Shown in pieces: positions 1 through 38,872 of a stretch of DNA of 64,000 bases (its first letter is position 1; the number at the start of each line of letters is the position of its first letter). A program made the position numbers and the translations under genes. A model generated the notes under the pieces. That model searched no databases. It saw nothing but the letters and a program-made list of their open reading frames with translations, and was not told where the DNA came from. Origin of the DNA: Labrenzia sp. 011 (GTDB taxonomy: Bacteria > Pseudomonadota > Alphaproteobacteria > Rhizobiales > Stappiaceae); NCBI RefSeq assembly GCF_003075075.1, contig NZ_QCYM01000064.1, forward strand, positions 1 to 64,000, given 5' to 3'.

Positions 1-31
1 CTTCCTGACTAAGCGAAGAATACCCGTTATT

Positions 32-53
32 GGTGAAATATAAAAATTTCACC
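32..53. terminator. Hairpin downstream of the tail fibre gene
   Basis: An 8-bp perfect stem (GGTGAAAT / ATTTCACC) with a 6-nt A-rich loop lies about 115 bp beyond the fibre stop codon, in an AT-rich stretch that contrasts with the GC-rich phage genes. It could end the leftward late transcript. It lacks a clear run of T on the leftward side, so it may work with Rho or may only stabilise a 3' end. Nothing else is recognisable in positions 1-168. Confidence 0.4.
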
Positions 54-168
54 TATGTTAATAGCGCACTCATGCACATGAACTTCAGTGCCTATCCATA
101 ATTAACCAGAGCACCGGCCAGCCCCGATGGCAGTTAAAATGTCAAAATTTCTCATATCGCAACAATTA

Positions 169-2142: not shown

Positions 2143-2224
2143 GAAATTTCCTTCGTAACGTTCGCGGCTTCATGAGCTGTTCGCGGCCGGAGTACCGGCC
2201 CCGCTGAAAATGCCGCCGGATGGC

Positions 2225-3664: not shown

Positions 3665-3684
3665 CTTCCGAGAACCGTTCGCCG

Positions 3685-4185
3685 TCAGCCGATTTTTGAA
3701 ACGCTGCTGTAAAATCCATTACCGAGCGTGGTCGCTGCGCCGGTAATGCTGCCCAGAATCGCCCCGGTGGCGCCGATTCTTCCCGCCCGGCGCTGCGATC
3801 TGGCGCGCTCCCTCGCCGCACGGGCCTCGAAGTCGAGAGTGTCCCCTTCGCCCTCCGCCCTGTAACGGATCGCCTCGATGTCCTGCGCGGCCTCATAGGC
3901 ATTGTCATCGGCGATATCGGTGAGCGAGCCGGTTTCGGACAGCCCCCGTTCGGCTCCTGCCGCCCGGTTGTTCCCGAGCACGCGGTCCAGGCGTTCAAGC
4001 GTTCGCTTCCGCTCGAATGATGCCTGCGTCCGGTTCACGTCCTTCTGCCTGTCTGCAAGCTGTGCCCGGCGCTCTTCCGCCTGGGCCTCCGCATCCGCCT
4101 GCTGCCTGATGCCCCGGGCCTGCACGGCACCGCCTGCCAGGGTTCCGGCCACGGAAACCGCTGTTAGAATTGCTGGATGACACAT
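3685..4185 (-). CDS. Internal virion protein, gp14-like
   Basis: This 166-aa protein begins with a short hydrophobic Ala/Gly segment (residues 4-22), continues as a charged helical region rich in Gln, Ala, Glu and Arg (23-135), and ends with another Gly/Ala-rich hydrophobic stretch (137-158). That architecture is typical of the small internal virion protein B (T7 gp14) that podoviruses eject to form a channel in the cell envelope. It starts three bases after the tail tubular B stop codon, with a GGAG ribosome site inside the end of that gene, so the two are translationally coupled. Function is assigned by architecture and synteny, not by a diagnostic motif. Confidence 0.6.
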   Translation of the reverse strand: MCHPAILTAVSVAGTLAGGAVQARGIRQQADAEAQAEERRAQLADRQKDVNRTQASFERKRTLERLDRVLGNNRAAGAERGLSETGSLTDIADDNAYEAAQDIEAIRYRAEGEGDTLDFEARAARERARSQRRAGRIGATGAILGSITGAATTLGNGFYSSVSKIG

Positions 4186-4188
4186 GGT

Positions 4189-6621: not shown

Positions 6622-7205
6622 CGGTCCGTGATGATGTCCAGATCAATCATGGGCAGGGGCGTTCCCTGCATGGCATCGAAGCTTCCCGCCTGTTGAAAGG
6701 TTTCCCGCGCGGCCTGGCGCAGGGCCTCGGCCCGGCTGTTCTTGCCGGTGATCGCATGGGCGCAGCCGGCCGCCAGGAAAAGGGAAAATCCGTGCACGAA
6801 CAGGGGGGCGAATTCGACCTCGCGGATCACCCGGCGAATGTGACGGAGCGGGAAAGGCGGCGGCTGATCGGTCATGATCCGCTGTCCCACCACTTCAAAG
6901 GGAACCGCCCGGCCTCCCGCCTCGCCATTCACGGTCTGCAGCGGCACGCGCAAGCTGTCGGCCGGCCTCTTGTACTGGTAGGCCCAGCGGAAAGGCGGCC
7001 TGTCCGCCTCCGCCGGCAGTTTCACAAGTTGCGTCGCAAAGTCCCAGTCATGCATGGCCAGATAGGCGTCCCTGTGGGCGGCATAATGGTTGCGGAACCA
7101 GCGGGAGGCGACGGAGGAAAAGTCGAAATCGCGGATGGGCGCCTCCTTCAGATGCGCAAGCGCAAGGTTGGCCATCTCGACGGATGTATTGACCGTACCG
7201 GACAT
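6618..7205 (-). CDS. Tail tubular protein A (gatekeeper), T7 gp11-like
   Basis: This 195-aa protein matches the podoviral tail tubular protein A family, which connects the portal to the nozzle. The N-terminus has the family pattern: alternating hydrophobic residues leading to NLALAHLKEAPI, then a stretch in which the protein describes the arrival of a C-terminal residue-rich helix (RNHYAAHRDAYLAMHDWDFA). The DWDFAT motif is typical. The C-terminal half is helical and basic. It is coupled by an ATGA overlap to tail tubular protein B. A ribosome site (AAAGAAAG) precedes the start. Confidence 0.82.
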   Translation of the reverse strand: MSGTVNTSVEMANLALAHLKEAPIRDFDFSSVASRWFRNHYAAHRDAYLAMHDWDFATQLVKLPAEADRPPFRWAYQYKRPADSLRVPLQTVNGEAGGRAVPFEVVGQRIMTDQPPPFPLRHIRRVIREVEFAPLFVHGFSLFLAAGCAHAITGKNSRAEALRQAARETFQQAGSFDAMQGTPLPMIDLDIITDR

Positions 7206-7228
7206 GTAAACGCTTTCTTTTCTGCTGT

Positions 7229-7567
7229 TCAGGCCGCCGCATTCCCGGCGAGCCGGGCTTCATAGGCGGTGAGCGCCTGAACGGCCTCCTGTTTGTTGGC
7301 CGCCTTGACACCGGCATAATGCGCCGCCATCGCCTGCTGGGTTTTCCAGTGTTCCTTGCGCCAGCCCTTGGGAAGCGCCTGGGGCTGCGCGGAGGAACCC
7401 GCGCCCTTGCGTTTTCTGTTCCAGTCGGCCGATAGCGCATCGCACAGGGCCGCGTGTCGTTCCTCCGGGCTGGATCCGCGGTCACCGCGGCGCGCCTGAA
7501 AATCCTGCTCGTGGTTCTCCTCGAGCCGCTGTAGATGCTTCAGCCGCCGCATGATGAGTTCATCCAT
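7229..7567 (-). CDS. Small phage structural-region protein, unknown
   Basis: This 112-aa hydrophilic protein is rich in Arg, Ala, Gln and Glu, with no signal peptide or membrane segment. The first 30 residues form a probable amphipathic helix (RRLKHLQRLEENHEQDFQARR), and the C-terminus is Ala-rich. It sits 23 bp upstream of tail tubular protein A and 70 bp after the capsid gene. A strong ribosome site (GGAAAGGGG) precedes the ATG. In related phages this slot often holds a head-completion or decoration protein, but I do not recognise this one and do not assign a function. Confidence 0.6.
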   Translation of the reverse strand: MDELIMRRLKHLQRLEENHEQDFQARRGDRGSSPEERHAALCDALSADWNRKRKGAGSSAQPQALPKGWRKEHWKTQQAMAAHYAGVKAANKQEAVQALTAYEARLAGNAAA

Positions 7568-7637
7568 GTCATCCCCTTTCCAACAGGAAAAAAGGCGGCC
7601 GAAGCCGCCCCGAAAATCCGCTGTCTGACGGCAGGAG

Positions 7638-8675
7638 TCAGATATTCACCTTCAGACAGGCGAATTTCACGTTCTTGCGGGTGTACTTCCGGTCCCAGTT
7701 GGCCGCATCACGCAGCTCCGCCAGCGATGCTCCCTGGGACTTGGCAAGGGTGTTTGCCAGAAAGTCCATGCCGGCCGGATGGATCAGCTCGAAACGACGC
7801 GTGGTCAGGTAATCCGCGCCACCGCCGTCGCCGATATCCGGATCGCGCGTGATTTCCGTGCCTTCATTGCCGTAGATCGTCGGTCGGTTCGGCACCTCGT
7901 CGAAATGCATGAAGGCACCGGGAGCGAACAGGAAGCAGGAATATTCATCGGAACTGGCCCCCGCCGTGACCGGCATCATTTCCGAATGCACAACCATCAT
8001 GCCTGCATAATAGGGCACCTCGAAAGGCGCCTCGGACGGCTTCTTGAACTCGATCTTTTCGTCATCCAGAAGCGTGCCGTACACGAAGCTGTGCATGGCG
8101 ATGACACGCAGGTCGTCCAGATTTTCCCCCATCGTCAGCCGAGCCCGGTTGATCGCCTGATAGCTGATCCGGTTGGCTGCCGTCGGCGAGCCGACATCGG
8201 CATAGATCGAATAGACCATGTCACCGCCGTCATTGGCCACATTGTCCGCGATCACCCCTTCGGCGGTGGCAATGATGCGCTCTTCCTTGCGCCGGCCCCA
8301 ATAGGCCCCGATCCGCTCTGCGACCCGGTTCATGGCGCTGTCGCCCCGGCCCGTGGCCGCGTAGCTCGCAACCGTCTTGGCGCCGTATTTCTTCGCAAGC
8401 CGGTGCTTGTAGGCCTTCATGTCGCTGGCGGTGATCTTGCTGGTGGTGATCCTGTTGTCGCTGTCGTCCATCACCGTCGGTTCGGCATCGTCCAGGTCTT
8501 CCCAGTAGGGCACCTCGATCTGGTTGCCGCCGGTCTTGAAGCGTTTTGCGATCTCCGGCGCCGGAGCTGCCAGAATGCCGGATTTTTCCAGCATGATCAG
8601 TTTCGCCGGTTTGTTCTCGGCCATGTAAGGCGTGAAAACGCGCGGCACCACGATATCGGAAATTGCAGAAGTCAT
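7638..8675 (-). CDS. Major capsid protein
   Basis: This 345-aa protein is assigned as the major head protein. It follows the scaffold gene, has the right length for an HK97-fold capsid protein of BPP-1-like podoviruses, and opens with IVVPRVFTPYMAENKPAKLIML, a pattern common in these coat proteins (an N-arm, then a long helix). There is a RFELIHPAGMDF segment near residue 295, also typical. The start at 8675 is chosen because it has an AAAGGAAA ribosome site seven bases upstream; an in-frame ATG 33 bases earlier has none. A cluster of hairpins precedes it and may set its expression apart from the upstream genes. Confidence 0.85.
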   Translation of the reverse strand: MTSAISDIVVPRVFTPYMAENKPAKLIMLEKSGILAAPAPEIAKRFKTGGNQIEVPYWEDLDDAEPTVMDDSDNRITTSKITASDMKAYKHRLAKKYGAKTVASYAATGRGDSAMNRVAERIGAYWGRRKEERIIATAEGVIADNVANDGGDMVYSIYADVGSPTAANRISYQAINRARLTMGENLDDLRVIAMHSFVYGTLLDDEKIEFKKPSEAPFEVPYYAGMMVVHSEMMPVTAGASSDEYSCFLFAPGAFMHFDEVPNRPTIYGNEGTEITRDPDIGDGGGADYLTTRRFELIHPAGMDFLANTLAKSQGASLAELRDAANWDRKYTRKNVKFACLKVNI

Positions 8676-8710
8676 CGATTTTCCTTTGATTGGAGTCCTT
8701 TGGGACATGT

Positions 8711-8822
8711 GCCGGCCGGAAGCGGCCGGCGAAGCGGACGCAATGTCCGTTTCGGGTCGGGAGATCGAGGGGGAACTGCCTGCATCTTTGCAGGCCCCGA
8801 GGTCCCGGGCGCACCGGGAGCT
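8711..8822. other. Cluster of stem-loops between scaffold and capsid genes
   Basis: The 258-bp gap between the scaffold stop and the capsid start holds three close inverted repeats: 8711-8730 (7-bp stem GCCGGCC/GGCCGGC, 6-nt loop), 8778-8795 (7-bp stem GCCTGCA/TGCAGGC, TCTT loop) and about 8797-8822 (TCCCGG/CCGGGA, 5-nt loop, extended by GAG/CTC). They lie in the leader of the most highly expressed late gene. They may process or stabilise the capsid mRNA or partly terminate read-through from upstream. No T-run follows them in the leftward direction. The rest of the gap shows no gene. Confidence 0.5.
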
Positions 8823-8933
8823 CAGGAGGTCTGTCTCGCCACCGGAGCGGACAGGCGCCAGGGAAGCACCTCCCGCTTTTTTCGCGATCCCCGGCCCCTT
8901 CTCGGCATGAAAGCGTTGGTGGTTTGAAAGCGC

Positions 8934-9833
8934 TTAAAGCATGAATTTTCGCGGATCTCGGCCGGCCGCAAGGATCAGTTGTCTTGCCCGTGCCGGATTG
9001 CGTTCCAGCAGATCGGATTGCTCTTTGAGGTTGGGACGATCCCGGTCGAAAGGATTGGCGCCGCCCCCTTCTGTTCCGGATACGGCAAGGCCATCCTCGG
9101 CAAAGGCCTTGTCATGAACGAAGGCAAGCAGCTTCACCGCGGCTGGATCGGCCACCTGCTGAAGACCGTTTTCATCAGGCTGCGTCAGGGCGCCCTTGCC
9201 GCTGAACCAGTCGCCGAGATCGACGCCGGCATTCTTCAGGCCGGATAATGCCCGCTCGGCCTTGGCGACCACGTTCTGATATCCGTCGCTTCCCGGTTCT
9301 CCATATTCCTTCACCAGGGCCCGATGTGCGGCCTCCACGGCCTCCGCCTGCTGTCGGGCAGCATCTCGGGAAGCCTGTTCATGAGCAGTGAACTGATCGG
9401 CCATCTTGCCGACCCACCTGTCATGCAGCTTCTGCGCCGCCGCCGGATGCAGTCCCGCCTCCTGGAACCAGCCTTCCGCCTCTTTCGCGAATGCCTGATC
9501 GTAGGGAAAATTTTCCGGCAGCGCTTCGGGCATCCTGAACTGGTAGCCGTCTTCCGGCGTCCAGGTCTTTGACAGCTCCGCATAGAAGGCCGCCCGGTCT
9601 TCCTCGCTGGCGGATTTTTCCGGAAGCGTTACCGCCCCCGAGAGCTGTTCCCGCAGCGTCCGGTAGCTTTCCAGCACACTGCCGATATCCTGCCAGCCGT
9701 TCTCCGTCGCCAGCGCCCTGTCGTTGTCGCTCAGCGTGGACAGAAACGCTCCAGCCGGCGTGTCCATCCCTTGCAGGCCCTCCGCCTGCGGATTTCCCCC
9801 AGCTTCGCCCCTGTCGAATTCCCCGTCGCTCAT
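8934..9833 (-). CDS. Phage scaffolding protein
   Basis: This 299-aa acidic, helical protein lies just upstream of the capsid gene, the usual place for the scaffold that guides procapsid assembly and then leaves. Its composition fits: high Glu, Ala, Asp and Gln, no cysteine, an acidic Gly-rich N-terminus, and a helical middle (residues 150-210). The C-terminus ends in basic and hydrophobic residues (RQLILAAGRDPRKFML), suitable for binding coat protein. A LPEKSASEEDRAAFY segment near residue 95 resembles podoviral scaffold proteins. The ATG overlaps the upstream stop (TGATG), indicating coupling with the Bbp19-like gene; a GTG codon immediately before ATG is a possible alternative start. Confidence 0.72.
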   Translation of the reverse strand: MSDGEFDRGEAGGNPQAEGLQGMDTPAGAFLSTLSDNDRALATENGWQDIGSVLESYRTLREQLSGAVTLPEKSASEEDRAAFYAELSKTWTPEDGYQFRMPEALPENFPYDQAFAKEAEGWFQEAGLHPAAAQKLHDRWVGKMADQFTAHEQASRDAARQQAEAVEAAHRALVKEYGEPGSDGYQNVVAKAERALSGLKNAGVDLGDWFSGKGALTQPDENGLQQVADPAAVKLLAFVHDKAFAEDGLAVSGTEGGGANPFDRDRPNLKEQSDLLERNPARARQLILAAGRDPRKFML

Positions 9834-10147
9834 CACAAGTCCTCATCGTTTTCAAGGTCGGGAAGTGTTTCCAGCCGGGCCGCCTCCTGCAGGGCCGCAT
9901 GTTCCTCCGGGGAAATGCGGATCATGGACAGGATGCGGGCATAGAGCGCCTTGCGCCCGTCAAGATAACCGCTCGCCCGTGGCGCGAGATCCACCGGCGG
10001 CGCCTGATAGATCCCGCATTCGGCGGCCAGATCCGCCAGGACGGTTTCACCTTCCGGACACAAAAAAACGGACCGATAGGCCCGTTCGATCTCCGTGGCT
10101 CTGTCCCGTCGCCGTCTGGCAACCCGTCTCAGGCTATGCCAGACCAT
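9833..10147 (-). CDS. Bbp19-like phage protein
   Basis: This 104-aa protein matches what I know of the Bbp19 family of Bordetella phage BPP-1 and relatives. The diagnostic pattern is visible: YRSVF, then a short Gly-containing turn and VLADLAAECG, later ASGYLDGRKALYARIL. The role in the virion or head assembly is not established. It lies between portal and scaffold, overlapping the portal end by 14 bp and the scaffold start by one base. The first 20 residues are very basic (seven Arg), suggesting nucleic-acid contact or simply an extended N-terminus. Confidence 0.7.
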   Translation of the reverse strand: MVWHSLRRVARRRRDRATEIERAYRSVFLCPEGETVLADLAAECGIYQAPPVDLAPRASGYLDGRKALYARILSMIRISPEEHAALQEAARLETLPDLENDEDL

Positions 10148-11837
10148 CTATCCCTCCCTGCTCCCCCAGGGATTTCAGGAGCGGCGCACCGTCCTTCGCC
10201 ATCCGCGCCAGGCTTTCACCGGCCGCGAGCTGTTGCTGCCGGCCCTGCCGCGCCGCCCGTTCGGCCCGCAGGGCCTCCACCTCTTCGGGCCTGCGTTTGA
10301 GTTTCGCCGGCAGCCCCAGAGCCCGCCGGGTCAAGTCATATTCCTCTTCCCGGTCATGCAGATCCAGGATGGAGGGATCGGCCCCGGCGGCGATGCTCAG
10401 ATACTCCTGGAAGCCCATGATTGCCTCGAAATGTCCCGCCTCGCGCATCTGGTCGATCGGCGCCGTCGAGGTCAGCGTGACATCACTGTCGAGAACGCTC
10501 TCGGGCGGAGACAGGGGAGATCCCGGTACAAAGGCGCCCCGCCGGCCCAGAATGCCGATCTCCCGCTCGAACAAAGCGTCGTTGCCCGCCATGATATTGG
10601 TGGAGAACGGACCGATCATGTCGGCCATTTCCTTGCGGCGGATATTGGCCTCCGTGGCCGTGCGGCCGTTGCCCTGCAACAGCGTCTGCCACAGGTCGCC
10701 ATAAAGGCCGATACGCAATTTCTCGCGGATGGCTTCGATCTGCGCATCGGCTGCCCCCGGATTGACCGTGTCGATCATCGGCCGGAACAGCGGCCGCCCC
10801 TGCTCGTCGATCAGGCCGGGATTAGTCCGGCCCGGATTGAGATCGAGCTGCCGTTCCTGCGCATGAGTGGCGATCGGCGGCCGCACGGCCTGTGAACTGG
10901 CGATCAGACTGTCCCGGGCCAGGCTCTGCAGGCTCTTGATATCGCTCATCAGCTTTGCCTGCGGCGGCGAGCCGTAGGGCGACAGACCGTCCCGGTCCCA
11001 CCGGCTGATCACCAGCGGATATTCGAAGAAGCCGCCCCTTCGGCAGATGTGTTTGCTTTCTTCCTCGAAATGCAGACTCTCATAGCGGGACTGCCCAATA
11101 TCCGAGGCCTGCGGATGACCGCCCTCGCGCAGGAAACAGGCATGCACGAAGGCGTGCTCCGTGTTTTTGCGTTTCGGATCATCCGCCTCTTCCTTCACCT
11201 TTTCCGAAACATTGCCGCCATACTCCTTCACCGCCTGCCACGACGTCAGCATACGCACGCGGAAAAACCCGCAATCGTTTCCCTGCGCATCCACGATCAG
11301 ATAGATCTCGTAAAGCGGCACATACCGGTAATGGACCGGTGTCCGAATATCGGCAAGATTGTCCTCGTTCTCGATTGGAAAGAGAACGCCCGTGCCGAGC
11401 TTTACCGTCGACAGCAGCCGGGAGCGGTTGGCGAGCGCGAAGCCGGACCGGCCGGAGTAGCGCACGCGGAAAAGATGGTTCCGCACCCGTTCGAAAAACT
11501 CCTCATCGGCCTGCGCCGGCTCTGGCGCGAAGGGATCGGCGAAACCGACTCCATGCCAGTGAAACCCCTCCGGCATGGTCAGAGAACCGACGCCGGAGGC
11601 CAGGCGATCCAGCAGCCAGACCGCCGTCGGATCGTAGAGCTTGCGCGAACGGTCGCGGGCTGCCGAGTGCCGAAGGGCGCTCATCCCGTCCGGTGCGGTC
11701 ACACCGCCCGGCCGGTTGAATGCCCGCTCCATGTCGGGCGCCGTATAGGTCACATATTCCTGCCAGTCGGCTTCGTACCATTGACGCTCGCTGCGCGCGG
11801 TCTGCAGTTCCGATGTCAGATCGTCGACAATGCCCAT
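10134..11837 (-). CDS. Portal (head-tail connector) protein
   Basis: This 567-aa protein is the podoviral portal, the dodecameric ring through which DNA enters and leaves the capsid. The N-terminus (MGIVDDLTSEL, then a run with W..Y..YTAPDMERAF) and the later PYGSPPQAKLMSDIKSLQSLARD segment are typical of T7 gp8/BPP-1-like connectors. The C-terminal part (EEVEALRAERAARQGRQQQ) is a charged helix of the kind that forms the crown or wing. The start at 11837 is preferred over upstream in-frame codons because its ATG overlaps the stop of the preceding small gene (ATGA) and the family homology begins there. Confidence 0.88.
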   Translation of the reverse strand: MGIVDDLTSELQTARSERQWYEADWQEYVTYTAPDMERAFNRPGGVTAPDGMSALRHSAARDRSRKLYDPTAVWLLDRLASGVGSLTMPEGFHWHGVGFADPFAPEPAQADEEFFERVRNHLFRVRYSGRSGFALANRSRLLSTVKLGTGVLFPIENEDNLADIRTPVHYRYVPLYEIYLIVDAQGNDCGFFRVRMLTSWQAVKEYGGNVSEKVKEEADDPKRKNTEHAFVHACFLREGGHPQASDIGQSRYESLHFEEESKHICRRGGFFEYPLVISRWDRDGLSPYGSPPQAKLMSDIKSLQSLARDSLIASSQAVRPPIATHAQERQLDLNPGRTNPGLIDEQGRPLFRPMIDTVNPGAADAQIEAIREKLRIGLYGDLWQTLLQGNGRTATEANIRRKEMADMIGPFSTNIMAGNDALFEREIGILGRRGAFVPGSPLSPPESVLDSDVTLTSTAPIDQMREAGHFEAIMGFQEYLSIAAGADPSILDLHDREEEYDLTRRALGLPAKLKRRPEEVEALRAERAARQGRQQQLAAGESLARMAKDGAPLLKSLGEQGGIDGLA

Positions 11838-12064
11838 CAGGCCCGCCCCAGAAGAGTGACGCCGGGCCGGGAGGCGCTGCCGTAGTCGGCAACACCCAGC
11901 GGACCGGTCAGATTGGTTGCCCGCGTGCCATAGGCCGCGGCCCGGCGGCGGCGGTTGTTTTCCTGCAGGTTCCTGGCCTGCCGCTGCGGGTCGGGCTCGC
12001 GCGGCGGCGGCGGTGTCGGTTCCGGGTCGGGCTGTTTCGAGCCGCCCCCACCAAACATGCACAT
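11837..12064 (-). CDS. Short Gly/Pro-rich phage protein preceding portal
   Basis: This 75-aa protein starts with MCMFGGGGSK followed by a proline/acidic stretch (residues 11-25) and an Arg/Gln-rich segment, ending in a Gly/Ser/Thr-rich tail. Proteins of this shape (a short Cys/Phe/Gly start, then poly-Pro and basic residues) are recurrent beside phage head genes, but the role is unknown. ATG at 12064 has a good ribosome site (AAAGGGA). Its stop overlaps the portal start by ATGA. It occupies a different frame from the portal, so the longer in-frame extension of the portal ORF across this region is not used. Confidence 0.75.
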   Translation of the reverse strand: MCMFGGGGSKQPDPEPTPPPPREPDPQRQARNLQENNRRRRAAAYGTRATNLTGPLGVADYGSASRPGVTLLGRA

Positions 12065-12526
12065 GACTGGTCCCTTTCTGATGCTGGTTGAGTGTTCTGG
12101 AAGGTCGGCCCGGGCCTGCCGGGCGATAGCCCACGGCATGGCCGTCCCTGGGAAGACAGCTTCCCGGTGGTCTCGACTTTCAGGATTTCGGAACAGTCCG
12201 GATCAATGCCTCGCGGCGGCTGCGCCGCAGCGGCTACATGTGTCCGGGATAACGTTATGAGGGCCGTTTTAGCCCCGATCTGACGAACCGTCCATCGCGG
12301 TCATTCGTCTCAACTCGTTGTTTAGACAGTTCTTTTTCGCAAAATCTTGTCAAACAACAGCTTTGCGCGCCTGTTCTTTTATGCGCGCCTGTCCGGCTTT
12401 TCCGATTGCTTCTATCCAGTTCCCGCCAGGCATTTCCCCGGCAAGCAATCGTCCCCTGGCCCGTCCAACCGGCGCACTGCGGAACGTCTCCGTGAAACGG
12501 AGCAGGCTCCGTCTTGGCGGACTGGG
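12065..12526. other. 462-bp non-coding gap with repeat element and possible micro-ORF
   Basis: This gap separates the 200-aa gene from the portal operon. It contains one copy of the duplicated element (12246-12327, listed separately) and a GC-rich hairpin near 12228 (CTGCGCCGCAG type). On the minus strand a short open frame ends at 12350-12352 and could encode 27 residues from an ATG at 12433 (MPGGNWIEAIGKAGQ then a basic tail), or 32 from a TTG at 12448 that has AGGGGA nearby. I consider this ORF weak. The position suggests a promoter or leader for the portal-to-fibre operon. Confidence 0.5.
12246..12327 (-). repeat. Duplicated phage element, copy A
   Basis: An 82-bp stretch aligns almost without gaps to 15980-16062. 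Shared blocks on the plus strand are GATAAC near the left edge, GGGCCGTTTTAGCCC-like, TGACGAA, CCGTCCA and TTTAGAC, in the same order and spacing, with TTTCGCAAA just beyond the edge. By eye identity is about 65-70%. A short inverted repeat (GGGC ... GCCC around an A/T loop) is kept in both copies despite sequence change. It ends 181 bp before the start of the small gene ahead of portal. Function unknown: candidate promoter/leader, antitermination or packaging signal. Confidence 0.6.
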
Positions 12527-13129
12527 TTACACCGTTTGCAGGAAATGCTGCAGCTTCTCGCGCTGCCGAAGATCGGTATCGATCGAGCCGCTATTCAATC
12601 GGTAGGTCGCGCCTTTCGTCTTGACGGTTCCGTCAGCGAGAAAATGCGCGGCAAACAGAAACGGCAGCCCCGGTTTCTTGAGGTTCCATTGGAGAAAGCC
12701 GCCTCCCGGGGGATATTGCCGGTCCGGGCTCATGTCGTCGTCATGCCTGGTTTCCGGAAGGATCTTCACCAACCGGTCCGGCCCGGTAAAGGTTGAAATG
12801 CTCAGAACGTGTTTCTGGAATTCCCTGTACCCCTTCTCCCCGCGTTCTTGAAGAATGTCCTCGTGAACCGAAACGCGCCGCCTGTCCTCGGCAGCCGTTT
12901 GCGCCGGCAGACCGTAACGCCCGCCGGACCGCGATGTCGTGCCGTGAAACTCGAAATCCTCCGGTTTTGGAGGCGTTTTCAGAACCAGCAGCTTGTATCC
13001 CAGCGAAAGCCGGCCCGCGTGGTAGCCGATATTCTTCTCGGTCGCCCGATAGTTTGCCAGAATGATTGCCCTGAGCCGGGAAATATTGCCGGAGATGGCA
13101 GGTGTCATTTCGCCGAGTTTGAAACTCAT
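12527..13129 (-). CDS. Uncharacterised protein, possible phage moron
   Basis: I do not recognise this 200-aa protein. It has no signal peptide or membrane segment, is mixed alpha/beta, and carries many charged residues. The N-terminal third is basic and helical (GNISRLRAIILANYRATEKN), the middle has DFEFHGTTSRSGGRY, and the C-terminal part has aromatic beta-like segments (GGGFLQWNLKKPGLPFLFAA). It is flanked by 136 bp and 462 bp of non-coding DNA, unlike the tightly packed late genes, and an AT-rich stretch precedes it. This suggests an independently expressed insertion (moron) between terminase and portal. Ribosome site GGAG lies nine bases before ATG. Confidence 0.6.
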   Translation of the reverse strand: MSFKLGEMTPAISGNISRLRAIILANYRATEKNIGYHAGRLSLGYKLLVLKTPPKPEDFEFHGTTSRSGGRYGLPAQTAAEDRRRVSVHEDILQERGEKGYREFQKHVLSISTFTGPDRLVKILPETRHDDDMSPDRQYPPGGGFLQWNLKKPGLPFLFAAHFLADGTVKTKGATYRLNSGSIDTDLRQREKLQHFLQTV

Positions 13130-13265
13130 CTTGAAAATCTCCGGGAAGAAAACGATAAAAAATAACTTCCTGCAATTTTAGGGGCACCTGTCCGGTTTTC
13201 AATGCCTGAAAGCCCGCGGTGTCCAGCTTTCCGCGCCGGACTTCGGATTGCCACGCGCGCCCGCG

Positions 13266-13772
13266 TCAGCCAGTCGGCTCCTTCTCGGTATCCGAGTGCC
13301 GGTCTTCCCGTATCCAGGCATAAACGAAAAAATCCTCGCCTCCCCGCCCGTAGGAGCGCAGCCGGCCTTCCCGCCTTGCCCCCAATGTTTCGAGCCACCC
13401 ATGTGCGATGTCATGGTCCACCAGTGTGATCGCCTGCAGACGGCGGCAGCCGCGCCTGATCTGCGGACGCAGGCTCGTCAGGTGCCGGGTGATTGCCGGG
13501 ACACAGCGCCTGAACCGTGACGTTCCGAAGGCCCAGACCTGCCAATGTTCGGGATCGAAGGCCGACGCCCTGCTGAAACCAAATGCGGCTGCCGGCTGGC
13601 CATCGTACCAGACCGACCAGACCATGCCGGGAACGCAAGTTTCCAGGGCACAGATGCCCAGCGCCCGCGTATCCCAGTCCTTCCACAGACAGGCGATTTC
13701 CCGAAAGTCTTCCTCCCGCATGTTGGCGGCGACGAAGCTGGCGTCCCGGACGCACAGGTCCCTGATCAGAAT
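13266..13772 (-). CDS. Phage GNAT-like acetyltransferase protein
   Basis: A protein of about 168 aa shows the layout of the GNAT-related proteins found beside podoviral terminases and related to the N-terminal part of T7 internal virion protein A. Typical features are IRDLCVRDASFVAANMREEDFREI at the start, VWYDGQPAAAFGF (beta 4-5), VWAFGTSRF, and a late VDHDIAHGWLETLGA (the alpha-4 motif, where acetyltransferases have a conserved [DN]..A..[FL]Y..G). The usual start ATG is missing: the family N-terminus begins at an ATT or CTG codon (13767-13772) overlapping the terminase stop, while the first ATG is at 13721 and would delete the first strand. Whether it binds acetyl-CoA cannot be told from the sequence. 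Confidence 0.65.
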   Translation of the reverse strand: MLIRDLCVRDASFVAANMREEDFREIACLWKDWDTRALGICALETCVPGMVWSVWYDGQPAAAFGFSRASAFDPEHWQVWAFGTSRFRRCVPAITRHLTSLRPQIRRGCRRLQAITLVDHDIAHGWLETLGARREGRLRSYGRGGEDFFVYAWIREDRHSDTEKEPTG

Positions 13773-15346
13773 CCGTCCAGAGGATCCGCCAGCGGCGCCA
13801 TGCCGCCGCGGTCTGAAATCCGCAGTGCTGCTTTCAGCTCCGCCCTGTCCTTCCATCCCAAAGCCTCGACAATCGCATCCGCTTCATCCGGGGACGAGCC
13901 GAGCCGCTCCCGGATTTCTTCCTTGCTCTCGATCAGAATTCGTCCGCCTTTCATCTTCCAGCGATGAGCGGTGAGCTGCGCCTTGACGCTCGCCGACCGC
14001 TTGATCGCCAGCCCCAGTCCGCTCTTCGGATGCAGCGCCTCTCGCAGCCGCCAGTAGAGCTGCGCGCGAAGATTATGAAACGGAATCCTGCTGTCCCTGG
14101 CACATTCTCCGGACTGGGCGGAAAAGACACATTTCTCGACCCGAATGTTGTTCTCCCGCTGGAGAAAGCCGACCGTGTCGCCGCCCCATCCGCCGGTACA
14201 ATCGACTACAATCAGCGCATTGTCCCGCCGCTCGCGGATGATCAGCGCGCCGACATCCGCCCCGTCTCTCGTGTCCGCTCCCCTCACGACGATGTTCTGC
14301 TCGAACCGCCGTCCGTGCAACGGCTGCAGAACGGTCTTGTCCTTGCCGCCCTGTGCCACATCGACGGCCAGCACACTCATCGGCGCGTCTTTGTCGACGC
14401 CTTCCTCATAGCGTTGAAAGGCCAGATCCACCCAGTCCGACGGGATCACCTGCCAGTCGTGATCCTGGCGCGCCGCAAGGAAGTCCCCGGTCTTCAGCGC
14501 CGTGCGCATCGGCTCCGGCATCTGGTCGAGCTGGGCATCGTAGTCCGCGCCCAGATACCTGTTGTCACCCCGCCTTGCGGGAATGAAGGTCCGGCTTTTC
14601 GGCGTGCGGATCTCACCCTCGATCCTGACCGGCTGCGGTCCGTCCACCCAGACGGTGCGAACGGCATCGCCGTCGTCGATGAAAACCGCCCAGAGCAGTT
14701 CGCCGGGTTTCACCCTGCCGTAAAGCGGATGCATCGGATCGAGCCAGGGCGCGAACCACTCGCTCAGAAAATCCCCCTGGCCGCCCAGCGGCGGGTTGGT
14801 GGCGATCAGCCCGCGGCAGCGCTGCCCCTTTCTTGTCGAACGCAGCCAGCCGAGCACGAAGAGGATCTTGCGCGGATCCATCTGCGCCCCCTCGTCAAAG
14901 GCCTTGAAGTCGTGATCACGGCCCTGCCAGTCTTCCTCCGATCCCGGCAATCCCAGATGTCCGAATTCGATGATGCGCTCATCCGGCCCCACCCATCGCG
15001 GCGGATTACCCGAAATCTTGCCCATCCCGGCCTGGCGCAACAGCGTGTTCATCCGCTCGATCAGGCCTTTGAGGGACTTCAGCGACTGGCGGAAGATTGC
15101 CGCCTTGTGATGGGCGAAAAGCGCCAGCCCGGCGATCAGATCCGTCTTGCCACCTCCGGCCGCCCCACCGTAAAGCGTCAGGTCGGCTTCGCAGAAATAT
15201 CCCTCCGTCTGCGGTCCGGGCTGCGGTCGCCAGACGGCGAACTGCTCCAGAACCCCCGCTTCATCCAGTTGCTTTTGCAGGGCGACACGCTCCGGCGCCG
15301 CCATCCTGTCGATGTGATCAATCAGCGTCTTGAGAGCCGTCGCCAT
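13766..15346 (-). CDS. Terminase large subunit
   Basis: This 526-aa protein is the DNA-packaging motor and nuclease. The ATPase Walker A is GGAAGGGKTD at residues 60-69 and Walker B/catalytic acids are in FKAFDEGAQ (Asp151-Glu152). A coupling motif lies in LIATNPPLGG near 180. The nuclease half has the expected acidic residues Asp329 (LAVDVAQGG) and Asp382 (VVDCTGGWGGD). Length and motif order agree with the headful-type terminases of podoviruses. It overlaps the small subunit by 29 bp upstream and ends inside the start of the GNAT gene. All motifs are present, so the gene looks functional. Confidence 0.92.
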   Translation of the reverse strand: MATALKTLIDHIDRMAAPERVALQKQLDEAGVLEQFAVWRPQPGPQTEGYFCEADLTLYGGAAGGGKTDLIAGLALFAHHKAAIFRQSLKSLKGLIERMNTLLRQAGMGKISGNPPRWVGPDERIIEFGHLGLPGSEEDWQGRDHDFKAFDEGAQMDPRKILFVLGWLRSTRKGQRCRGLIATNPPLGGQGDFLSEWFAPWLDPMHPLYGRVKPGELLWAVFIDDGDAVRTVWVDGPQPVRIEGEIRTPKSRTFIPARRGDNRYLGADYDAQLDQMPEPMRTALKTGDFLAARQDHDWQVIPSDWVDLAFQRYEEGVDKDAPMSVLAVDVAQGGKDKTVLQPLHGRRFEQNIVVRGADTRDGADVGALIIRERRDNALIVVDCTGGWGGDTVGFLQRENNIRVEKCVFSAQSGECARDSRIPFHNLRAQLYWRLREALHPKSGLGLAIKRSASVKAQLTAHRWKMKGGRILIESKEEIRERLGSSPDEADAIVEALGWKDRAELKAALRISDRGGMAPLADPLDGF

Positions 15347-15800
15347 CTTCGGGCATATCCTTTGCGGTCAGAAGAGCCAGCACTCCCAGAGCGATCTCCT
15401 CCGAGCTGCGCGGCTTGAATGTCTCTGCTCTTACAATGCCATCCCCTGTGCATGGACTGCCCCGGGCGTCGGCCTCCGGCCGGTCCTGCCAGCCGGCGCG
15501 GTTCTTCATCGTGAATGTCCATGCACTGGCATTGAATTTCGCCAGATCGCCCTTCGCGCCTTCCTTGCCGATCCGCTCCCACTCGAGCAATCCGAGCCTT
15601 TCGGCTTCCTCCAGCTTTGCGGGAGGGAAGTCGTTCGGAAACTGCTCGACGTAATAGCGGATGGTCGTTCGGTTCGCGCCGGGAAAACTGTCCAGCGAAT
15701 ATCCGGCGGCAATATGTGCGCACAATGCCTCGCATGCCGCCCGGCGCGCTTTCCGTGTCGGCCACTTCAGCGCGGGCGCCTCATCGTCCGGTAGGACCAT
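15318..15800 (-). CDS. Terminase small subunit
   Basis: This 160-aa protein is probably the DNA-recognition subunit of the packaging enzyme. Residues 14-50 form a helix-turn-helix region (ACEALCAHIAAGYSLDSFPG), with NRTTIRYYVEQFP as the recognition helix. The FNASAWTFTMKNRAGW segment near 105 is a hallmark of one family of small terminase subunits. The start at 15800 is chosen over a longer in-frame extension to 16076 because it has AAGGA seven bases upstream and the extension is low-complexity and overlaps the duplicated element. It precedes and overlaps the large subunit gene. Confidence 0.82.
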   Translation of the reverse strand: MVLPDDEAPALKWPTRKARRAACEALCAHIAAGYSLDSFPGANRTTIRYYVEQFPNDFPPAKLEEAERLGLLEWERIGKEGAKGDLAKFNASAWTFTMKNRAGWQDRPEADARGSPCTGDGIVRAETFKPRSSEEIALGVLALLTAKDMPEDGDGSQDAD

Positions 15801-15979
15801 GCCATTTCCTTCAGTCCGTTTTTCGAAATGAAAAATCAGGCGGGCAGCGTCCACCTCCAGGCATGAAATATGGCTTTTGCCGAAAGACGGCTTTGGCCTG
15901 CGTCCCGGTGAAAGCCGCGCGCCGGCGGACGTGATCGCCGCAGCTTGAAACACCTCGCCGCCGCGGACGCCAGTTCCCT

Positions 15980-16062
15980 GAGATAACCTGATGGGGCCGG
16001 TTTTAAGCCCGTTTTGACGAAGCCGTCCAGCGCCCGCGCTTGCCTCGATCAGGCGTTTAGAC
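15980..16062 (-). repeat. Duplicated phage element, copy B
   Basis: This 83-bp copy aligns to 12246-12327 with at most two single-base gaps. Its left edge lies 179 bp before the terminase small subunit start, almost the same distance as copy A from its gene (181 bp). Both contain a small inverted repeat with GGGC/GCCC arms and an A/T-rich loop, and both carry TTTAGAC at the upstream edge. The leader between element and gene is much less conserved, which argues that the element itself is under selection. A role in late transcription or DNA packaging is inferred from location only. Confidence 0.6.
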
Positions 16063-16088
16063 GCGGAATTTCGCAAAGCCCTTGCCGA

Positions 16089-16292
16089 TCAGCACGATCG
16101 CAGCCCCGCGCCATTAAGCGCAGGCGGACCATTTTCCGGCACCGGCAGCAGGTTCTGATCGGCCGACACCAGCGTTGCATCGGTTGGCGTATCGTCCTGC
16201 AGCTTGTTGAAGTCGTCGATCCCGGAAAGCGACAGGAACCCACCGGTGAAGTTAAACGCAGCCTCATCGCGGCCGTTGTTGATCAGGCAGGA
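16089..16292 (-). pseudogene. Truncated coding remnant at the phage/host junction
   Basis: On the minus strand an open frame of about 67 codons lacks a start codon (a TAA lies directly upstream) but reads like protein: FNFTGGFLSLSGIDDF, then DATLVSADQNLLPVPENG. It stops at TGA 16089-16091. A one-base shift near the end would continue as GAAIVLIGKGFAKFRV and stop at TAA inside repeat copy B. The composite end (Pro-rich motif, hydrophobic stretch, basic residues) vaguely resembles a C-terminal sorting signal. It is probably the decayed 3' end of a gene. I do not recognise the family, and it could be chance. Confidence 0.3.
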
Positions 16293-16322
16293 TTATAAAG
16301 ACATTTCGAACGACACTGACAA
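16292..16322 (-). promoter_or_regulatory. Possible leftward sigma-70 promoter upstream of late genes
   Basis: On the minus strand TTGTCA (16317-16322) and a perfect TATAAT (16292-16297) are separated by 19 bp, slightly long. It faces the terminase genes and sits in the AT-rich strip 16300-16390 that separates the phage block from the signalling cluster. It would give the late operon a host-type promoter. Confidence 0.3.
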
Positions 16323-16401
16323 TTATCACAATAATTAAACGTAAAAAAAATATTAATACTTAAGACAGATACTGTCGATCGAAACAGAGCGAGACAAAGA
16401 A

Positions 16402-36658: not shown

Positions 36659-37018
36659 TCACAGCCTCTCCGCCAGCTTCTTCAGAACCACCCGGTTCCG
36701 GCTGGTCACTGTCGAACGTTTCCAGCCGTATTTCCGGCACAGGGCGGAGAACTTTCCTCCACCGGCCTTGCACATGACCTCGAACTGCAGCGCCCTGCGG
36801 GCATCCGCATCCTCGATCAGAAAGAACCAGCCCAGCGCTTCCTCTGCCCGGCTCACCTGCGCGGGCGAAAAGAAGCGGCGGCGCCTGGCGATCCTGCCCT
36901 TGCACCCCGGCCAGGCTGCCAGGATTCCGCGCGGCCCGTCTCCCTTTCCCGTGGCGGCAATCACTTCGACGGCCTCCGTCAGACGGGCCATGATGTCTTC
37001 AGGGGTTTCAGCTTTCAC
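36659..37018 (-). CDS. Phage-type helix-turn-helix protein (DUF6362-like)
   Basis: This 119-aa protein resembles a family found in alphaproteobacterial prophages (I believe DUF6362, not certain). Residues 1-40 hold PEDIMARLTEAVEVI and GPRGILAAWPG. The C-terminal third reads as a helix-turn-helix (FSALCRKYGWKRSTVTSRNRVVLKKLAERL), suggesting a DNA-binding regulator. It is the last gene of a three-gene leftward operon under repressor control. In related prophages such regulators precede late or terminase genes, which makes its leftward orientation toward the terminase block at 15.8 kb notable. Confidence 0.65.
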   Translation of the reverse strand: MKAETPEDIMARLTEAVEVIAATGKGDGPRGILAAWPGCKGRIARRRRFFSPAQVSRAEEALGWFFLIEDADARRALQFEVMCKAGGGKFSALCRKYGWKRSTVTSRNRVVLKKLAERL

Positions 37019-37126: not shown

Positions 37127-37537
37127 TCATGCCGCTTGGGCCTCTGCCGCCATCAGCCGGTCCAGCTCATAGGAAAGCAGGACCGACAGGGTCAGCGTCG
37201 GCGCGGAGGGGTTGATGTATTTGGCGCGCCTGAGGAGCTCTTCCAGATCGAGCTGGTCGAAAAGATCGAGAAATCCTCTGCGGTCGATCCACTCCGGCTT
37301 GCTTTTCACCAGCCAGGACACCGCCGTCAGACAGGGCGCCGACCAGTTGCCGCGGTTCTGCGCCGTGTTGATCAGACCGAAGACCAGGCGCAAATGCTCC
37401 GGTCCGTGCTTTTTCAGCAGGGTCTGGCAGGTACGACGGGCCTTGGACTGGTGACGCCCCTCCACCCGCCGGGTGTGATTGATGAATTGCACCCCGTATT
37501 CGGCGGCAATCCTGTCGACATGCCCACCGGACGCCAT
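37127..37537 (-). CDS. Small phage protein, unknown
   Basis: This 136-aa protein is basic in its N-terminal half (HTRRVEGRHQSKARRTC) and helical throughout, ending in an Ala/Glu tail. It contains LRLVFGLINTAQNRGNWS and LTAVSWLVKSKPEW, features I associate with uncharacterised prophage proteins of Rhizobiales. No function assigned. Its ATG overlaps the stop of the preceding gene (ATGA). A 108-bp gap without features separates it from the next leftward gene. Confidence 0.6.
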   Translation of the reverse strand: MASGGHVDRIAAEYGVQFINHTRRVEGRHQSKARRTCQTLLKKHGPEHLRLVFGLINTAQNRGNWSAPCLTAVSWLVKSKPEWIDRRGFLDLFDQLDLEELLRRAKYINPSAPTLTLSVLLSYELDRLMAAEAQAA

Positions 37538-37866
37538 CAGTCACGGCCTTTCGTTGCGCAGGCAACGGGTCGGCTGTCCGGCACCCGCTGCAGGGAACCG
37601 AAGGCGGCTTCCGCCCTTTCCCGGGCAGTCAGGATTTTTCGTTCCTGTTTTGTTCTTTTTGTCCTGCCTTCGGGCACTTTCCGACCGGTTTCTCCCCGTG
37701 ACCCTTCTCCCAGTTTCAGAAGCCGGAGCTCCAGGGTCAGCAACCGGTTGCGCGCCTTCTCCAGCGCGAATTCGTCTTCCAGGCGTGCGCTCGGCCGCTC
37801 CGCCCGGATCCGGCAATAGGCGACTTTCTCCCGCGCGGTCTCGATCTCGTCCTTGAGGTCAATCAT
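37537..37866 (-). CDS. Small coiled-coil phage protein, first gene of leftward early operon
   Basis: This 109-aa protein starts MIDLKDEIETAREKV; the first 60 residues form a likely coiled coil (heptads of Leu/Ile/Ala with Glu/Arg flanks), and the rest is basic and Arg/Lys-rich. It looks like a small DNA- or RNA-associated protein but is not recognised. The start at 37866 has AGGAGA eight bases upstream; a longer frame to 37938 lacks one. It lies about 180 bp downstream of the repressor-controlled leftward promoter. Confidence 0.55.
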   Translation of the reverse strand: MIDLKDEIETAREKVAYCRIRAERPSARLEDEFALEKARNRLLTLELRLLKLGEGSRGETGRKVPEGRTKRTKQERKILTARERAEAAFGSLQRVPDSRPVACATKGRD

Positions 37867-38036
37867 AAAGGCTCTCCTCTGCCCCGCCCCTGCCGTCGGC
37901 CTCCTTGCGGCACAACTGCATCGTTCTTCCATTCGCACTCCGTCTGCATGACACCATGCCCCTCGCCCGGAGATGAACCGGACCGTCGGAACACATCACA
38001 ATTTCCATCATGTCTTCCATTCATCAAACTCATTGC

Positions 38037-38072
38037 TTGCAAATTCGTACGCATTATGCGTATAGTTGTCAA
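38037..38072. promoter_or_regulatory. Divergent phage promoters with shared operator (PL and repressor promoter)
   Basis: The perfect palindrome TACGCATTATGCGTA (38048-38062) sits in the spacer of two opposed promoters. Leftward: TTGACA (38072-38067) with TACGAA 17 bp later. Rightward: TTGCAA (38037-38042), 18-bp spacer, TATAGT (38061-38066). A repressor bound here would block the leftward early operon and control its own gene. Adjacent 12-mer GCGTACGAATTT (minus strand, 38052-38041) recurs at 38994-39005. Confidence 0.75.
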
Positions 38073-38137
38073 CGTGGAATTCATACGTTTTCTACTGCTA
38101 CCACGTACGCACCTCAAACGGCACGGCAGATACGATC

Positions 38138-38872
38138 ATGGAAGAGAGCACCCAATCGGCCGTCTCCAGGCAGCTTGCGGACCTGAAGAACCGCAGCGGA
38201 TTGTCCATCCGCGCCATCGCCCGCGCGATGGGGTACCAGAACGCATCGTCCATCCAGCGTTATTTCAGTCCGGACTATTCCCGCCCCGCGCTGCCGGCCG
38301 ATTTCGTCGCCAAGCTGCTGCCGGTCCTCACCGGCAAGGGAGAGCAGCCGGTGACCCGCGAGGAAATTCTGGCGTTGGCACCGGAGTCCATTACCGACCT
38401 GGAAGCCACCCATGCCCCGTCCAGGGCCGCAAGACCCCTCGAGATCAAGGGACAGGTTGCCGCCGGGTTGTGGATGGAGGCCGGATTGTTCGAGACGGAC
38501 GCCACTCGAAAGGCCACCATGGCCGGAGACCTGCGCTACCCGAGCGAATGCCAATATCTGTTGCAGATCAACGGAGAAAGCCTGAATCGGATCGCCCGGG
38601 ACGGCGACCTTGTCCTTTGCCTCGACTATCTCGCAGCCGGAATCGACATCCGCTCCGGCGATCTGGCTGTCGTGGAGCGCTCAAGGGACGGCGGGCAGAC
38701 GATCGAACGCACTGCAAAGCGCATCATTCGCCACGAAAACGGAATTGAATTGCGTCCGGAATCCGACGATCCGCGTTTTCAGGAGCCGATCATCTTCAAC
38801 GAACTTGACGAAGAAGCCACGGAAGTGCGGATCATCGCCAAGATCCTGACCGTCATCCGCCAGATCGTCTAG
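38138..38872 (+). CDS. CI-type phage repressor with S24 self-cleavage domain
   Basis: This 244-aa protein should keep the adjacent prophage genes silent. An N-terminal helix-turn-helix (residues about 20-45: LSIRAIARAMGYQNASSIQRYFS) is followed by a linker and a LexA-like peptidase domain. The expected self-cleavage Ala-Gly is at 109-110 (GQVAAGLWMEA), the catalytic serine is Ser148 (NGESLNRIARDGD), and the lysine is Lys194 (ERTAKRI). All needed residues are present, so it should respond to RecA/DNA damage. It lies between the two operator-bearing promoters. The start at 38138 follows the promoter; upstream in-frame codons overlap the promoter region. Confidence 0.85.
   Translation: MEESTQSAVSRQLADLKNRSGLSIRAIARAMGYQNASSIQRYFSPDYSRPALPADFVAKLLPVLTGKGEQPVTREEILALAPESITDLEATHAPSRAARPLEIKGQVAAGLWMEAGLFETDATRKATMAGDLRYPSECQYLLQINGESLNRIARDGDLVLCLDYLAAGIDIRSGDLAVVERSRDGGQTIERTAKRIIRHENGIELRPESDDPRFQEPIIFNELDEEATEVRIIAKILTVIRQIV

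Follow-up and report, generated by a model that had tools for sequence, protein, structure and literature searches.

Lambdoid phages typically have one late promoter, PR', and their Q gene sits directly upstream of it. At lambda PR', according to the account cited, a -10-like box occupies positions +1 to +6 and RNA polymerase pauses at about 16 nt (PMC4604602), and the published pause signal is G(-10)Y(-1)G(+1) (PMC4604602, PMC7876045). Pauses of this kind are where the antiterminators Q and AlpA are described as loading, by way of a DNA element situated between the -35 and -10 boxes (PMC6606751, PMC7969949, PMC9371919), and the Q protein of phage 21 (21Q) is reported to be sigma-region-4-like (PMC6606751). 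For AlpA of Pseudomonas aeruginosa, this element is given as GGGACG; two separate promoters have it in the interval from -35 to -10, together with a -10-like sequence (PMC7969949, PMC9371919). The promoter of the Caulobacter gene transfer agent (GTA) is described as acting with GafY, IHF and GafZ under the repressor RogA, with the GafY site at -123 to -113 and the start codon at +251, and the same descriptions present GafY as DnaA-domain-IV-like and GafZ as unlike known antiterminators (PMC11150451, PMC9632790). Here we focus on a non-coding element that occurs twice among the late genes of a phage-derived cluster in Labrenzia sp. 011, within a stretch of 64,000 nucleotides (the window: positions 1 to 64,000 of contig NZ_QCYM01000064.1, assembly GCF_003075075.1). 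This element, of about 155 bp, is very likely a promoter.

Both copies lie on the minus strand, which is the strand of the late genes. Copy 1 (12232..12386) is a putative late promoter ahead of a short gene and the portal/head module, and copy 2 (15967..16121) is a putative late promoter ahead of the terminase genes. Local alignment of the two non-coding regions that contain them (12136-12526 and 15802-16401) gave a score of 40, against a mean of 11.4 and a maximum of 22 for 2,000 dinucleotide-shuffled pairs. The duplication was first pointed out in an earlier note made from the letters of the window, and this score bears it out at the places given there. The length of about 82 bp in that note was an underestimate, as the stretches it described are the downstream two thirds of the longer repeat. 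In an alignment of 22 copies, the two are identical at 91 of the 156 columns that make up the full element and at 62 of the 97 in the part seen first.

Relatives were searched for with the large terminase as seed, and an iterated profile yielded 28 matches in the resulting loci and the window. Six of these were omitted from the 22-row alignment (A1), namely the duplicates L001, L002 and L009, the near-duplicate L085, and L008 and L084 (identical and partial). A sequence-only model, R1, was made from this alignment with the window copies included. R1 identified exactly two copies in the genome of the window, copy 1 at 96.5 bits (E 2.9e-27) and copy 2 at 92.5 bits (E 5.0e-26), each copy being itself a row of the model. 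After more loci had been fetched, 132 matches were reduced to 64 distinct element sequences, including those of the window, in 49 groups at 85% identity. The similarity is thus neither at the level of shuffled DNA nor missing from relatives. Of 45 genus genomes searched, R1 found one to four copies of the element in 27, and it found none in 42 other genomes of the family, which amounts to 27/87 genomes and one of seven genera overall. By name, the carriers are records of Roseibium and Labrenzia, together with one 'Rhodobacterales bacterium'. Among the genomes searched, and as far as sequence matches tell, the element is limited to phage-derived late-gene clusters of one genus. A blastn search of GenBank phages returned no near relative of the element, and its exact pattern occurs in 10 stretches of IMG/VR.

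Column statistics over the 22 and the 64 copies revealed conserved islands at nearly fixed spacing; the indels of the 22-row alignment are rare and one base long. From 5' to 3', these islands are GCGCTYAA (-128 to -121), TTG (about -99), an inverted repeat GTCTRAAC-n5-GTTCAGAC (-69 to -49), TNGACR, TTCGTCA, GCTAAAAC, CAT, TANNTTG and a final AANTGCGGCC. Invariant islands with fixed internal spacing support the proposal of the earlier note that selection acts here on a non-coding sequence.

The upstream block reads GCGCATAA in copy 1 (12379..12386, minus strand, as are all element features below) and GCGCTTAA in copy 2 (16114..16121). Its C, G, C and final A are invariant in 22/22 copies, and its conserved columns are kept in 61-63 of the 64 distinct copies. 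The inverted repeat, a candidate activator site, is GTCTAAAC-n5-GTTGAGAC in copy 1 (12307..12327) and imperfect in copy 2 (16042..16062), and 84% of its cells are paired across the 22 copies. The GGGC/GCCC hairpin that had been thought preserved pairs in only 68% of cells, and its bases flank the -10 box. The -35 box is TGGACG in both copies (12289..12294 and 16024..16029), followed by a spacer of 18 in copy 2. Within the spacer lies the motif TTCGTCA (12281..12287 in copy 1, 16015..16021 in copy 2), a candidate Q-like binding element in which three columns are nearly fixed among the 64 distinct copies (T 64/64, C 64/64 and A 63/64). The -10 box is GCTAAAAC in copy 1 (12266..12273) and CTTAAAAC in copy 2 (16000..16007). 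Near -99, the conserved TTG was considered, by eye only and without a score, as a possible IHF site.

The Caulobacter RpoD promoter consensus is given as TTGACGS and GCTANAWC in the source consulted (PMC8144410). The element has TNGACR and, 17-18 bases further on, TAAAAC, or more exactly TGGACGS-N14-GCTAAAAC, which corresponds to this consensus. When scored on TTGACGS-N10-14-GCTANAWC, 9 of the 22 copies, copy 1 among them, reached 13/14, compared with 1/1,000 random window segments, the scored copies being related and not independent. A YRY start is conserved at -1, +1 and +2 (Y 22/22, A 20/22 and T 22/22), and its place sets the predicted transcription starts at 12258, the A of CAT, in copy 1 and at 15992 in copy 2. 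The consensus pair in about half of the copies, their orientation toward cluster genes and the conserved start all point to the phage-specific promoter that was among the four functions offered in the earlier note. The promoter is well supported and an antiterminator-loading site is a plausible refinement of it; a structured leader RNA and a packaging site, the other two, fared poorly, as discussed below.

The orientation of the element was mapped in 16 fetched regions, which come from 13 genomes and contain 29 copies once matches below 30 bits are excluded. All 29 point to cluster genes, 26 of them toward the terminase, the portal or a cassette of the families F0 and F9, and three toward other genes of the cluster. 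The first same-strand genes were terS (8 copies), the portal module (8), the F0/F9 cassette (10) and F95/F47 or F227/F47 (3); an opposite-strand gene, F68 or RidA-like, intervenes in four cases. In the window, the predicted start precedes the start codon by 194 bases (copy 1) and 192 bases (copy 2). The earlier note took the near-equality, there 181 and 179 bp from the downstream edges of its stretches, for a fixed distance, which holds in the window genome only: as the element lies between 64 bases and 1.8 kb from the next same-strand gene in relatives, the agreement is probably a coincidence.

Conservation continues into the predicted transcribed region. With the -10 box as a fixed reference point, bases were counted position by position in 63 of the 64 distinct copies; one, in L178, could not be anchored. 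An earlier count of 58 copies (alignments reaching +24) was biased by trimming and omitted window copy 2, and the figures used here are those of the 63-copy recount. Around the start, Y-1 occurs in 63, A+1 in 53 (A or G in 59) and T+2 in 59 copies. A second, -10-like box spans +8 to +14, with T+8 in 53, A+9 in 61, T+13 in 58 and G+14 in 60 copies, and TANNNT in 49. It is followed by a pause-like signal with Y+23 in 59 and G+24 in 48 copies, and 48 copies have G+14, Y+23 and G+24 all together. The -10-like box starts 15 nt ahead of the pause base, an offset equal to that described for lambda PR'. In the window, the box is weak: it reads TATCCCG in copy 1 (12245..12251), without T at +13, and TATCTCA in copy 2 (15979..15985), without T+13 and G+14.

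Two gene families accompany the element. F13 and F14 are each present in 26 genomes, all of which belong to the 27 that carry the element, and in 0/18 of the remaining genomes of the genus. The large terminase is present in 25 genomes and the major capsid gene in 17/45 genus genomes. G050 and G057 contain the element, F13 and F14 and have no match to the large terminase (TerL) at E 1e-30; because of these two, the element is slightly better correlated with the regulators than with the terminase. In the window, F13 (36662..37018, minus strand) is a DUF6362-like protein (PF19889, E 4.9e-7, 30.5 bits with a cut-off of 31) and the candidate trans-acting late regulator, and F14 (37130..37537, minus strand; phrog_22699) is a second candidate regulator. 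A small gene, F32 (37540..37938, minus strand), lies upstream of F14, and F15 (38066..38869, plus strand), a CI-like repressor with a Peptidase_S24 domain (PF00717, E 3.3e-10; phrog_4, transcriptional repressor), is divergent from F32-F14-F13. In L003, L004, L006, G030, G034, contig 1 of G054 and G057, the 3' end of F13 adjoins the element or runs into it, so that F13 has the position of Q relative to PR'; the copy beside the regulatory block is presumed to be the ancestral one. In IMG/VR, there were three loci for F13 and none for F14.

To F13 we assign, with modest confidence, the role of trans factor of the element. Its AlphaFold2 model, built from 8 sequences (pLDDT 81.5), was compared with 215 chains in a second look, and the best match was 6jny_B, phage 21 Q, at Z 7.2 and rmsd 3.3 with 97/119 residues aligned, although a Z below 8 can reflect a common arrangement. 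The Q-like gene position and the pause layout had been noted before this match was known. Next came two sigma region 4 structures, those of sigma-S (Z 5.0) and of SigL (Z 4.6), and all others were at 3.0 or below. A PDB sequence search returned neither Q nor any other solved structure as a homologue of F13, and the genome of the window has no PF06530 match. Among predicted viral proteins, the only match to the F13 model below E 0.001 was A0A6G5YKI1, and the matches that carry a name were weaker.

The sequence of F13 also varies together with the spacer motif. Of 31 distinct sequences, 26 contain W[KT]R[ST]TV[TAI]SRN in the predicted helix-turn-helix, and the other five have WERSTVLKRN there. 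Five of the 64 distinct elements have the spacer TTTCACA, and all of these adjoin the five WERSTVLKRN proteins, while none of the 26 other F13 sequences shares one of the collected loci with such an element. Eleven columns separate the two groups; three gap-rich ones were set aside, and five of the eight informative positions fall in residues 91-106. G054 (= G002; contigs C1 and C4) and G036 (C6 and C44) each contain two clusters with both kinds of F13, each next to its matching spacer motif.

Sequence comparison makes clear the conserved layout of the element, its position ahead of gene blocks, its co-occurrence with F13 and F14 and, within the genomes searched, its restriction to these clusters. 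We consider the likely overall explanation to be a multi-copy late promoter through which separate blocks of the phage-derived cluster would be jointly activated, with Q-like loading of F13. RpoD housekeeping polymerase would use the weak -35 TNGACR and the -10 box GCTAAAAC. The inverted repeat near -59 and GCGCTYAA near -125 would probably be activator sites, with F14 perhaps at one of them, and the CI-like F15 would repress F32-F14-F13 until relieved. F13 would recognise TTCGTCA in the spacer of each copy, would load in the manner of phage 21 Q while the polymerase waits at a sigma-dependent pause near +23, and would help it to leave as a termination-resistant complex. Q-like loading, as opposed to plain activation, is the tentative part of this scheme and falls somewhat short of probable: it is favoured because of the spacer motif, the pause layout, the fold and the gene place, and opposed because leader terminators are not enriched and the pause letters of the window are defective. 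If the scheme is true, the element would be the master switch of a phage-derived cluster that more than half of the Roseibium/Labrenzia genomes searched possess, DUF6362-like proteins would gain a function and Q-type control would extend to a dispersed promoter set, with the exact bases defined for the start sites, the pause base, the motif and the helix residues.

Several observations count against this explanation. Regarding the promoter, copy 2 scores 11/14 on the RpoD consensus, which 70/1,000 random window segments equal or exceed, the best consensus match lies elsewhere in 8/22 aligned copies, and neither window copy is recognised in a generic sigma-70 scan of the E. coli type. In most copies the last base of the -10 box is C, which is poor by the E. 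coli rule. Regarding the pause, both window copies are without T+13 (TATCCC and TATCTC, compared with TANNTT), and copy 2 also lacks G+14 and Y+23. Conservation of the start region is moreover favoured because all copies were gathered with models that include it. Within 260 nt downstream of the element, 7/64 leaders have a terminator-like hairpin versus 7.2 expected from shuffles, in a simple scan limited to such hairpins and not extended to Rho sites. Regarding F13, a Foldseek search of its model gave no significant PDB match and no Q protein among the 39 PDB matches listed, and profile comparison of F13 by hhalign gave probabilities of 0.2 for E. coli QuuD and 0.1 for YdfT. The co-variation of F13 and spacer counts as one event, because the five TTTCACA-linked proteins are probably one clade. 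G038 carries the element without F13 or F14, and in the window itself F13 lies 20 kb from copy 2, in a regulatory block at 36.7-38.9 kb.

A plain activated late promoter is the most serious alternative, and we regard it as possible. F14 and/or F13 would then bind at the inverted repeat and the upstream block and recruit RpoD polymerase without antitermination, and the region from +1 to +27 would reflect promoter escape or an operator. Conservation at the inverted repeat (near -59) and at GCGCTYAA (near -125) is about as strong as in the core, and the upstream block lies about where GafY is described as acting in the Caulobacter GTA promoter, at -123 to -113 (PMC11150451). The unenriched leader terminators and the sigma-region-4-like character of the F13 model are also in line with plain activation, which taken alone leaves unexplained the box at +8 to +14, the Y+23 kept in most of the 63 copies and the spacer motif.

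It is rather improbable that the true -10 box is TANNTT at +8 to +13, with transcription starting about 20 bases further on, so that the start region would be the promoter core and would hold no pause signal. TANNNT does have the key T, A and T positions that are absent from TAAAAC, conservation fades soon afterwards as it would at a start site, and the Caulobacter GTA promoter is described with a -10 of TATCTTT and a degenerate -35 (PMC11150451). However, in the 9 of 22 copies at 13/14, the upstream pair corresponds to the Caulobacter RpoD consensus down to the GC that precedes TA and the S that follows the -35, and the YRY start is at the right distance from this pair. By eye, there is no -35 candidate 17 bp upstream of TANNTT.

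Three further readings are far less probable. The additional copies might be functionless, decayed duplicates of a gene end, comprising the 3' end of F13 and a downstream promoter, as in L003, L004 and L006 the final codons of F13 lie within the upstream part of the element; we consider this very unlikely, since invariant columns persist amid freely diverging bases and the extra copies are placed ahead of gene blocks. A structured leader RNA (a riboswitch or put-type RNA) is, if anything, less likely still. Some pairs of the inverted repeat covary, though a palindromic DNA site would do so too, and the start region is conserved, but the window has no Rfam match at gathering or relaxed thresholds, RNAalifold gave a consensus of only -0.97 kcal/mol, the predicted start comes only after the inverted repeat, and the hairpin first proposed is the one that pairs in 68% of cells. 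Least likely of all is a packaging (cos/pac) or recombination site read by terminase or integrase, for although a copy leads into terS in 8/29 mapped cases, genomes carry one to four copies, all 29 are in late-gene orientation, some lie far from terminase genes (15 kb in G004), the two genomes without a large-terminase match retain the element, and the element contains a promoter consensus.

How does the promoter with its proposed F13 loading relate to the systems described above? Like the lambdoid PR'/Q-utilisation sites of lambda and 21, as these are described, it combines sigma-70 boxes (of the alphaproteobacterial RpoD consensus) with a conserved spacer motif. Most copies, though neither of those in the window in intact form, also have a -10-like box at a 15-nt pause offset, and in several relatives, though not in the window, a candidate regulator gene is directly upstream. 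Unlike PR', it occurs in up to four copies per genome, it has a long conserved upstream region with an inverted repeat, and its leaders are without terminator enrichment; F13 shows no sequence similarity to Q. Because leader terminators are not enriched (7/64 versus 7.2), we do not class the element as a Q-utilisation promoter. The -35 region TGGACG resembles the AlpA element GGGACG, which may or may not mean anything; judged by the descriptions of AlpA, the present element differs in its length of about 155 bp and its confinement to phage-derived clusters. With the Caulobacter GTA promoter as described, it shares an RpoD promoter, a far-upstream site near -120, a long leader and a CI/LexA-like S24 repressor above the activator operon. 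In contrast to the descriptions of the Gaf proteins, the F13 model resembles 21Q, and the phage genes here are podovirus-like. Weak viral matches of the F13 model (E 0.1 or worse) are proteins named sigma-70, sigma region 4 or DUF1492, reminiscent of the sigma-region-4-like phage regulators, among them DUF1492 and ArpU. The element is filed as a member of none of the Q/PR', AlpA and Caulobacter GTA circuits.

A broader proposal, which we put forward as speculative and doubtful in its entirety, is that DUF6362-like F13 would be an alphaproteobacterial antiterminator with a 21Q-like fold and no Q sequence similarity, loading at two to four dispersed Q-utilisation promoters. Its one regulon would be a chromosomally fixed, podovirus-like and GTA-like cluster without integration or replication genes, whose particle genes are unlike RcGTA, and two regulator/promoter specificities would coexist in two genomes. 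Our literature search found no paper with the term DUF6362 and, among the titles listed, none on the cluster or the element; it covered mostly non-subscription journals, so that absence from print is not shown.

A fold was also sought for F14, whose best match (Z 5.5) was an unrelated enzyme, and F14 is left unnamed. In the gap between F15 and F32 (window 37938-38120), TTGAC is followed by one or two GTACG motifs in 8/8 loci by eye, which is likely a promoter with a repressor operator. F15 was considered as the protein that binds the inverted repeat of the element, which is unlikely in view of the fact that the motif pair of the element is never found in this gap. There are scattered single matches to element motifs in these gaps (TTGAGAC in L084, TTCGTCA in reverse in L092 and ACGCATAA in the window). 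Because the motifs of the gap differ from the repeat of the element, the F15 repressor more likely acts one step above the element. Between the late cluster and the likely regulators F13-F14-F32/F15-F16, the window has an interval of about 20 kb (16402-36600) occupied by two-component, GGDEF and other genes.

The leaders were also searched for terminators before the controlled scan reported above. The first scan was suggestive in three relatives, and the controlled one was without enrichment. Several leaders (L007, L083, L085, L086 and L088) contain a box GAAC-N7-GAAC, presumably the alphaproteobacterial LexA box.

In the window, copy 1 is followed by a short gene (11840..12064, minus strand; phrog_831, E 3e-10) and a portal/head-tail adaptor frame (10137..12134, minus strand; phrog_332, E 1.5e-68) whose true start is probably internal. 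The first gene after copy 2 is a putative small terminase subunit (15321..15800, minus strand), named by its position before TerL only and without a PHROG, Pfam or NCBIfam match, and it is followed by the large terminase subunit (13769..15346, minus strand; phrog_979, E 7e-30). The late genes match T7/podovirus-type families: the phrog_332 adaptor, the phrog_247 capsid, the tail families phrog_394 and phrog_376, and a T7 gp14-like protein. The F0/F9 cassette (L129, L130, L134 and L135), often right after an element copy, consists of one to five tandem F0 paralogues of about 170 residues, in most cases followed by a variable F9 of about 750 residues. One F9 had no Pfam or PADLOC match, and one F0 had none in Pfam, PHROGs or PADLOC.

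The cluster is a candidate domesticated podovirus-like, gene-transfer-agent-like device. The contig of the window starts inside it, and in G004 it ends in an endolysin gene; no integrase or replication family was found among 11 genes scanned there, which are part of the genes of the cluster in one genome. The cluster (window 1-16300 and loci L128-L160) adjoins recurring chromosomal gene families across the genus, and flanking families such as F8, F19, F33, F43 and F44 recur beside it in other genomes. Bacterial cargo is found between the phage modules in L134 (14243-17052), with similar cases in L138, L140 and L141, and comprises APH phosphotransferase-family and radical SAM genes by Pfam; LysE-like, RidA-like and Lrp-like cargo genes were recognised by eye. 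In the window (172-2142, minus strand), a tail-fibre-like protein combines collagen repeats with a CBM5/12 carbohydrate-binding module.

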